Shown here: positions 6,986 through 9,315 of the stretch, one piece after another | Position numbering within the stretch: position 1 is the first letter of the stretch | Layout: every line of letters begins with the position of its first letter | Virus record (IMG/VR): IMGVR_UViG_3300010397_000057 | Coordinates: 1-46,498 of that record | Reading direction: 5' to 3' (one strand) | DNA length: 46,498 nt | Origin: a virus | Notes under the pieces: generated by a model | Database searches by the model: none | Told to the model about the DNA's origin: nothing | What the model saw: only the letters and a program-made list of their open reading frames with translations | Made by a program: the position numbers and the translations under genes

Positions 6986-7269
6986 GCGCCCTCCTTCTCG
7001 TTGAGCTTTTGGGTTGCGGCGGCAGCCGCGAGACGGGCCTGCCGTCTGCCCCGGACGGTCTTCCCCCGCGGCACCGTCTCGACGTACCGCCATGTCCGGT
7101 CGGGCTTCAGGGAGCAGGTGTGGATCCGGAAGCTGAACCGGTCCGGGCCGTCGAGCGGGACGACGGCGACGTTCCGCTGCAGGTGGTGGACGTAGACCCA
7201 GGTGAGTGGCTTCATGCAGGTGGTGCAGTAGCGCGGGACCGGGTCGGGAAGGGCTTCGATCTGGATCAC
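6982..7269 (-). CDS. Cys/His protein, 95 aa
   Basis: Has YCTTCMKPLTWVYVHHLQRN (14-33), a CxxC with histidines about twelve residues later, typical of a small zinc finger, then FRIHTCSLKPDRTWRYVET. The C-terminus is a basic helix (RGRRQARLAAAAATQKLNEK). GTG 7269 overlaps the stop of the replication gene upstream. Likely DNA- or RNA-binding; function unknown. Confidence 0.6.
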   Translation of the reverse strand: MIQIEALPDPVPRYCTTCMKPLTWVYVHHLQRNVAVVPLDGPDRFSFRIHTCSLKPDRTWRYVETVPRGKTVRGRRQARLAAAAATQKLNEKEGA

Positions 7270-7790
7270 GACGCCTCCTCGACGACGCGGATGTGCCGGT
7301 TGTTGGCGGCGGGGAAGTCGCAGATGCGGCAGTGGCCGCTCATCTCGTCGAGGTCCGGCTTGTGCCGGCCTCCTGCACCTCTGCCCTTCCCCTCTCCTTT
7401 AGGAGAGGCAGGGGAAGGGGGCATCGTGACTGACGCGTCACGTAACGCGTTACTCACGTGTGACTCACGTGTAGCCGCCTTCTGGCGGAAGCGTTTCTGC
7501 CGGTCAGCGGCCTTTCGCTTCCGTTCCTCGATCTCCGCTTTGGTGGCGTTCAGAGGGAAGTACCGGGTGTCCCGGAAGCCGTGCTCCTCGACCGCCCACA
7601 GCCCAACCTCGACCAGCCGCCCGATCCACTCAGGTGTGCCGTACATGCGGGCGCGAGCGGTCGAGATGAACCCGTCCGTCTGCGCGTCCGCGATGTACGA
7701 GCCACAGCGCGAGTAGAGCCCGGCGGCCGCCGTGCCGACCGCGTCGATCTCAGGCCACTGGTGCCAGCCCTCGTCGAGCCAGTACGCCAC
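7266..7790 (-). CDS. Replication initiator / replisome-organiser-like protein
   Basis: 174 residues. The N-terminal 75 residues (WLDEGWHQWPEI, then GLYSRCGSYIADAQTDGFIS, ARMYGTPEWIGRLVEVGLW) follow the winged-helix pattern of actinophage DnaD/replisome-organiser-type proteins. A basic helix (AEIEERKRKAADRQKRFRQK) and a disordered Pro/Gly/Ser linker follow. The C-terminus has CRIC...H. The linker DNA contains a strong hairpin and iteron-like repeats, the same arrangement as lambda ori inside gene O. It probably recruits host replication enzymes. Start GTG 7790. Confidence 0.62.
   Translation of the reverse strand: MAYWLDEGWHQWPEIDAVGTAAAGLYSRCGSYIADAQTDGFISTARARMYGTPEWIGRLVEVGLWAVEEHGFRDTRYFPLNATKAEIEERKRKAADRQKRFRQKAATRESHVSNALRDASVTMPPSPASPKGEGKGRGAGGRHKPDLDEMSGHCRICDFPAANNRHIRVVEEAS
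7384..7472. other. Candidate replication origin inside the initiator gene
   Basis: A long hairpin (CCCTTCCC...TCTCC, loop TTTA, GGAGAG...GGGGAAGGG) spans about 7384-7420. Next to it lie the palindromes TGACGCGTCA (7431-7440) and GTAACGCGTTAC (7442-7453), then two direct copies of ACTCACGTGT (7452-7461 and 7463-7472) with an 11-bp period, one helical turn. All of this falls within the low-complexity linker of the initiator-like gene, where protein constraint is weak. The repeats are seen; ori function is inferred. Confidence 0.55.
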
Positions 7791-8522: not shown

Positions 8523-8959
8523 CCGAGCACGTCCTCATCGGCGAGGTGGCGGGAGTCCATCGACGTCACCCCGGGCTCCCCGTACCGCCACACCCGCAGC
8601 GGGATGCCCTGCTCGGCTGCCAGCTCGGCGCAATGCGTCGCCCCGGCCGAGTCGTCGCGGATGAACGCCAGCGCCAAGTCGGCACCCTTGGCGACCATCT
8701 GCTCGTTGCGGACGATCCCGGCCCGCTTGCCGAACTTCTGCCACAGCGCCGGATGCCGCTCGGCGAGGATCAGCGTGGCGCCGCGGTACCAGCGGACCCA
8801 CTGATCGGCGAGCTCGTCGGCGCCGTTCGGGCAGGCGCCGTGAACGACCGCGACCATCGGGACGCCGGCCTCGATGGCCGCGTCGGCGACGGCTTGGAGG
8901 GCGAGCCGGGTCGTGGCCGCGTCGTCCCACGTGCGGCTGCCCGTCAAAATCACTCGCAT
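8519..8959 (-). CDS. SLOG / DUF2493-type nucleotide-binding protein
   Basis: 146 residues. MRVILTGSRTWDD at the N-terminus gives the Rossmann GSR motif. VVHGACPNGADELADQW (38-54) matches the 'HGga.GaD..a..wA' signature, and KFGKRAGIVRNEQMV (75-89) the 'GkkAGp.RN..M' motif of the YspA/cpYpsA-related SLOG family (DUF2493). Members are proposed to bind nucleotide-derived ligands and often occur in phages and conflict systems; no defined reaction is known. It overlaps the HNH gene by ten bases. Confidence 0.82.
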   Translation of the reverse strand: MRVILTGSRTWDDAATTRLALQAVADAAIEAGVPMVAVVHGACPNGADELADQWVRWYRGATLILAERHPALWQKFGKRAGIVRNEQMVAKGADLALAFIRDDSAGATHCAELAAEQGIPLRVWRYGEPGVTSMDSRHLADEDVLG

Positions 8960-9315
8960 GTCGTGTATCCGCCTTCCTCAGTGAGCAGGACCAGGCCGTG
9001 GACTGCGTGCTCGATCGGGACCTCGCGTGGATCGGCGCCGCGCCGCACGAGCAGCCCGAGGTCGTAGGACTCCTCCCGGTGCGACTCGACGTGCCCGTGG
9101 CAGCCCGTCACGCCGGAGCCGTGGAGCAGCAGGAGGTTCGCGGGGCCATGGGAGACGGGGTTGCGGTCGCCTCCCATGCCGGCCGGCCGGCGGTGGTGCA
9201 GGGACCAATCCCGGCTGCGCTCGCCGACGATCGGCAGCCCGCAGGACGCGCACCGGCCCTGGTCGCGCTCCTGGACGGTGGCGAGGGCTGCGGAGGTGGG
9301 GCGGATGCGTGTCAC
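8950..9315 (-). CDS. HNH endonuclease (internal)
   Basis: 121 residues. CASCGLPI (22-29) supplies the first zinc pair, WSLHHRRPAGMGG (37-49) the HH catalytic motif, then NLLLLHGSG and TGCHGHVESH (72-81), the N and third H positions. The order matches the classical HNH family, similar to those used as free-standing homing or nicking nucleases. Unlike the end-proximal copy it is buried in the early operon, so a role in recombination, host DNA cleavage or self-mobility is more likely than packaging. GTG 9315. Confidence 0.85.
   Translation of the reverse strand: MTRIRPTSAALATVQERDQGRCASCGLPIVGERSRDWSLHHRRPAGMGGDRNPVSHGPANLLLLHGSGVTGCHGHVESHREESYDLGLLVRRGADPREVPIEHAVHGLVLLTEEGGYTTCE

Follow-up and report, generated by a model that had tools for sequence, protein, structure and literature searches.

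In lambda and the lambdoid phages, the replication origin lies within gene O, where inverted-repeat iterons occupy the middle of the initiator gene and adjoin the region that is opened (PMC7466680). Likewise, gp38 of phage SPP1 binds direct repeats in its own gene 38 (oriL), next to an unwinding element (PMC6316719), so that the principle of an origin within its initiator gene is already known. Repeats within the O-like gene of Pseudomonas phage MD8 were taken as support for lambda-like replication (PMC8508860), and for the mycobacteriophage RepA prophages Miko and Jeeves the authors suggested a lambda-like position of the origin, within repA or adjacent to it (PMC7157519). In PLE, a satellite of Vibrio cholerae, the DNA-binding domain of the initiator RepA was shown experimentally to covary with the iterons, the pair being exchanged as a module (PMC8263062). 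Mapped origins are, to our knowledge, not available for most actinobacterial phages.

The stretch of DNA analysed here (the window) is a virus record of 46,498 bases with integrase, portal and terminase genes. The original prediction, made from the sequence alone, placed a lambda-like origin in 89 bases of a putative initiator gene on the basis of a strong hairpin, palindromes and two direct repeats with an 11-bp period. All of these elements were found at their predicted positions (Table 1), and the origin reading is largely supported by the comparisons below, in the absence of any replication, binding or depth data. We therefore regard these 89 bases as the likely core of a lambda-like replication origin inside its own initiator gene, with iterons that would be read by the protein segment following the winged helix. 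The locus shares with lambda and SPP1 the repeats inside the initiator gene, with MD8 the use of such repeats as an argument for lambda-like replication, with Miko and Jeeves the suggested position of the origin, and with PLE the covariation of an initiator part with the iterons. It differs from lambda in that its protein matches no O-like PHROG, in having no evident counterpart of the AT-rich flank of the lambda iterons and in that, in phages of the window type, the iteron class follows the segment after the winged helix. SPP1 belongs to a different host group, the relevant sections of PMC8508860 describe for MD8 neither a motif nor a tract, and neither a hairpin nor a specificity segment, and the proposal for Miko and Jeeves concerns prophage plasmid replication from an unmapped site. 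In PLE the origin is noncoding and the RepA_N domain itself covaries, unlike the window type, in which it is not the winged helix that does so.

Table 1. Features of the putative origin and of the initiator gene in the window.
Feature	Positions	Strand	Remarks
Initiator gene	7266..7790	-	Starts with GTG and encodes 174 aa: a winged helix, then a basic helix, the iteron-coding linker and a short C-terminal part
Winged-helix domain, residues 3-81	7548..7784	-	AlphaFold2 pLDDT 93; nearest solved folds also winged helices
Basic helix proposed to read the iterons, residues 84-114	7449..7541	-	Helix in model; columns 94-106 carry the iteron-class signal
Module core codons DRQKRFR, residues 96-102	7485..7505	-	F101 is the code position; column and comparison evidence
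Half-site copy ACACGTGAGT	7463..7472	-	First direct repeat, minus-strand reading; ACTCACGTGT of the original prediction
Half-site copy ACACGTGAGT	7452..7461	-	Second direct repeat (ACTCACGTGT), 11 bp further
Palindromic iteron GTAACGCGTTAC	7442..7453		Aligned with GTCACGCGTGAC in the nearest relative, L009
Palindrome TGACGCGTCA	7431..7440		Aligned with TCACGCGTGA in L009
Last half-site GTCACG	7425..7430	-	Sequence
Pyrimidine-rich tract CCCCCTTCCCCTGCCTCTCCT	7401..7421	-	In the place of the relatives' CCCGA/CCCGT tract; position only
Hairpin, TAAA loop on coding strand	7384..7419	-	Inner arms 7391-7398/7401-7408; outer arms 7384-7393/7410-7419

The product of the initiator ORF matched the profile of PHROG 2447, 'replication initiation protein', with an E-value of 3e-23 over residues 5-121, that is its N-terminal half, and otherwise only the three related families 1882, 30000 and 3926. 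A PHROG profile search gave no match to the O-like families (345 and 678), and a Pfam search returned nothing at E-values up to 1, so that the criteria for Phage_rep_org_N (PF09681) and DUF1376 (PF07120) were not met. In an AlphaFold2 model (pLDDT 93) a long basic helix comes after the winged helix, and the closest solved structures were winged helices, including those of the plasmid initiators 4pt7, 4pta and 5kbj, with Z-scores of about 6 and up to 7.3. Sequence search of solved structures yielded no believable relative, Foldseek alone gave E-values above 0.3, and membership of the winged-helix class rests on the fold alone. The predicted encoding of the repeats in the linker of a winged-helix protein was thereby upheld; this linker is disordered, rich in a few residues, and makes up most of the C-terminal part of the short gene. 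The predicted lack of a phage polymerase, helicase and primase also held for the ORFs scanned, which were not all ORFs of the window, suggesting that host proteins would be used. Elsewhere in the window, a Phage integrase family protein (PF00589; 18469-19317, plus strand) indicates that the phage is probably temperate, and close to the initiator gene lie a gene for a YspA/cpYpsA-related SLOG-family protein (PF10686; 8519-8959, minus strand) and, after it, one for an HNH endonuclease (8950-9315).

Half-sites of the form CGTKAC/CGTKAG occurred six times in a 123-nt stretch of the gene; 2000 synonymous recodings averaged 0.76 and never reached six. This cluster is the densest of any 60 nt in the window, the next best containing three half-sites. 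Perfect 10-bp palindromes numbered 95 in the window and neither of the two in the linker is rare singly; it is the clustering of palindromes, not any single one, that is remarkable. Paired GTNACG with 4-nt spacing was absent from the window. The criterion of several binding-site-like repeats within an initiator gene, as in lambda, is met, without binding data.

Comparison with other genomes showed that the repeat element is under selection at the DNA level. When 2.9 million viral contigs were scanned with paired GTCACGCGTGAC, 79 were found to carry it, nearly all in or beside phage initiator genes, whereas a scrambled palindrome of equal composition gave none. The ORFs holding the pair belonged to DUF1376 (47 ORFs) and to primosomal, replication-initiation, O-like, DnaD-like and replisome-organizer PHROGs, so that some of the motif-sharing proteins elsewhere do match O-like families, and DUF1376 proteins have both module and iterons in common with the window type. 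Among 33 distinct initiator ORFs, the palindrome began 38 times at codon position 3 and 33 times at position 1; 11 of these ORFs used both positions, and in the remaining frame the palindrome would include a stop codon. It also occurs, in differing frames, in Gordonia phage Bizzy and in phages Gudmit and phi1_186001. Related half-sites were thus kept in relatives in other reading frames and sometimes outside the gene: the iterons lie beyond the stop codon of the winged-helix ORF at five loci (L011, L038, L064, L226 and L158), and at L025 they precede the gene by 176 bp. Conservation of the repeats despite an unconserved linker protein, which the original prediction had itself proposed as a test, was accordingly met. 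In the nearest relative, L009, whose protein is 69% identical to the window initiator, GTAACGCGTTAC is replaced by GTCACGCGTGAC and TGACGCGTCA by TCACGCGTGA, each palindrome being changed on both sides. Among 84,980 species genomes of bacteria and archaea, the paired palindrome was present on 17 contigs, which came from Actinobacteria and from Alpha-, Beta- and Gammaproteobacteria; about two thirds of the matches lay in initiators. Paired GTCACGCGTGAC also occurs, unexplained, outside recognisable initiators in actinobacterial chromosomes or contigs (L094, L096, L101, L102, L104 and L105), and motif pairs are present in a 1759-aa ORF with acidic/Arg repeats and no evident initiator (L066:2883-8162, plus strand). 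Searching with the phage_rep_org-like protein from L028 returned only L028 itself.

To define the layout independently of the motif, 78 homologues of the Bizzy initiator were collected by peptide pattern. Unsupervised counting of 6-mers in their linkers found CCCGAC at least three times in 36 (1.2 expected), GCGTGA in 14 (0.17 expected), GAAGCA in 14 (0.07) and CGTGAC in 12 (0.41). On the coding strand the iterons come first, then a CCCGA/CCCGT tandem tract, then a hairpin. The tract was present in 57 of 75 non-redundant loci as against 18 of 981 control windows, occurred in all three frames and on one strand (three reversed), and had a unit of 5 nt, not a multiple of 3; it is followed in the relatives by a dip in GC content (0.55 versus about 0.67). 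When hairpins were anchored on the loop alone, often TRAC or TAAA, without requiring pairing, at least seven of eight outer pairs were formed in 14 of 76 cases compared with 1 of 1088 elsewhere, with unlike stems. The order was the same in DUF1376 homologues, where the tract unit is 7 nt long (CCAGACA/CCAGTAA), likewise no multiple of 3, and the hairpin loops are TGAC. Comparison thus shows a layout common to many phages of two bacterial phyla. Neither this three-part layout outside lambdoid phages, nor non-triplet tracts, nor the TRAC-loop hairpin was described in the literature searched, which covered few subscription papers. The sequence of the tract varies widely, and other tandem tracts, some with units that are a multiple of 3, were seen in the corresponding position in L212, L231, L239 and L240 (CCAGTT, GAGGTA, GAGAGA and GAGACA units). 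In L224, L225, L232, L238, L138 and L157 a winged-helix N-terminus is joined to an HNH-like domain replacing the linker, and the iteron element is seemingly missing at its usual place.

The window hairpin occupies the same place as the TRAC- and TAAA-loop hairpins of the relatives. Its DNA fold is far below that of dinucleotide shuffles (z -5.6), its energy is ordinary given the encoded peptide (-33.0 versus -31.3 +/- 3.3 for synonymous recodings), and the gene strand also folds well as RNA, with a z-score weaker than that for DNA. In the original prediction the hairpin was lumped with the repeats; it is more probably a separate third element, distinct from the iterons. The window is without a 5-nt tandem repeat tract, and no obvious AT-rich stretch was evident near its iterons. 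GC skew had been proposed as a check: the cumulative G-C minimum lies at 8750, 1.3 kb from the repeats, and is shallow and confounded by gene direction. Whole-window skew was rejected as too weak for placing an origin. These features, namely a hairpin no stronger than the peptide predicts, the missing tract and AT-rich stretch, the short C-terminal part and the weak cumulative skew, are the points in the window that speak against the origin reading.

In order to find the protein part that goes with the iterons, iteron classes, assigned by word counts with a few loci relabelled by eye, were compared with alignment columns. The class signal fell at window residues 94-106, with z-scores of up to 18 at residues 97-102 (18 at both R97 and R102), and was near 0 for the recognition helix of the winged helix. 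Among the 40 loci whose segment and iterons could both be placed in types A to D, the two matched in 39, and iteron class changed often on the winged-helix tree. Partial Mantel tests of iteron similarity gave 0.32 (p 0.001) for the module and 0.00 for the winged helix; the corresponding values for the DUF1376 family were 0.40 (p 0.001) and 0.17 (p 0.006). Later-searched genomes agreed by eye. In modules of the ERQRRxR type, all 22 loci with Tyr or a small residue at x had GTCACG, and 8 of the 10 with a bulky x (Trp, Phe or His) had GTAACG or GTAGAC (Fisher 4e-6, uncorrected for kinship). The window, with F101 and GTAACGCGTTAC, and L009, with Ala and GTCACGCGTGAC, fit this rule, the central palindrome changing from GTAACG to GTCACG. 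The module classes and the x rule are post hoc, having been set after seeing the data. Comparison in two families shows that iteron class tracks the short segment after the winged helix rather than the winged helix; that DNA specificity itself resides in this segment is likely, as an inference without binding data.

By analogy with lambda and SPP1, several initiator copies would bind the iterons (half-sites GTNACG/CGTNAC and CGTGAG), the basic helix after the winged helix presumably reading the bases. The complex would then open the DNA near the asymmetric tract and the hairpin and recruit host helicase and polymerase. Possible roles are strand-specific landing or opening for the tract, and signalling of priming or loading for the hairpin. 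What comparison shows is the conserved DNA element, the layout and the association of class with segment; binding, opening, helicase loading and initiation are inferred. The original proposal that the protein binds its own gene and recruits the host replisome hence remains an inference, with specificity now assigned to the segment after the winged helix.

Could the repeats be an operator, through which the protein controls transcription of the early operon while replication starts elsewhere? Intragenic binding sites can repress, and the window gene is short with a C-terminal part that is mostly linker; however, the families are annotated as replication initiation or primosomal, a conserved tract and hairpin adjoining the iterons are no operator feature, and the lambda and SPP1 origins lie in this very place, which makes an operator very improbable. 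That the linker peptide is selected for low complexity and the DNA repeats are a by-product could be suspected from its disorder and the dominance of few residues. This is contradicted by the about equal use of two frames and the frame changes, by tract units of 5 and 7 nt and by extragenic copies, and with no synonymous recoding reaching the half-site count it is virtually ruled out.

Mere co-transfer would mean that module and iterons move together only through being adjacent, and that some other region of the protein, or a different protein, reads the bases. It is favoured by the module adjoining the iterons in almost all loci and by the frequent class changes on the winged-helix tree. Against it, L025 keeps an ERQ-type module (DRQRNKRAR) although its GTCACG iterons are upstream of the gene, and the submodule RQxRWR recurs with GTAGAC/GTCTAC in two families (L216, a gammaproteobacterial-class genome; L222, an actinomycete-class genome; and the viral contig L181). 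We consider co-transfer alone unlikely; linkage of neighbours remains the main alternative to a segment-iteron code and may possibly explain part of the association. Finally, the hairpin might act as RNA, in stability or translation of the initiator mRNA, and not in the origin, a possibility supported by the good RNA folding of the gene strand. Its place after iterons and tract is kept across families and the RNA z-score is the weaker one, so that this is unlikely, though not excluded.

Returning to the origin reading with a specificity segment, a bolder version is one towards which we lean only slightly: several unrelated N-terminal initiator families of Actinobacteria and Proteobacteria would have exchangeable reading segments after the winged helix (ERQRRxR, RERMRxxR, EAGRxGG, GNHxRWH, KRSANARW and GKxGGRPKK), each paired with a specific iteron that mostly lies a few codons further along the gene, keeping reader and site together during exchange, and within one type a single residue would be associated with one half-site base. 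No description of the motif, the tract or a segment-to-iteron code was found in the literature searched, most subscription papers being outside its scope. If the reading is true, the origin of many phages and prophages could be read from the initiator gene, and the odd linker peptides PTRPDPTRP, VTRD/SRVT and QTPDTRHQTPDT would be explained as DNA signals. Proteins could be matched to DNA sites from sequence, the protein-to-site code would be testable by segment exchange, and origin parts would be available for phage-based vectors in laboratory strains of Streptomyces and mycobacteria. Within class D (L111, L131, L141, L149, L161, L178, L180 and L182), the segment GNHxRWH goes with CCGATC iterons and, followed in several cases by CxxC, resembles a small zinc-binding module.
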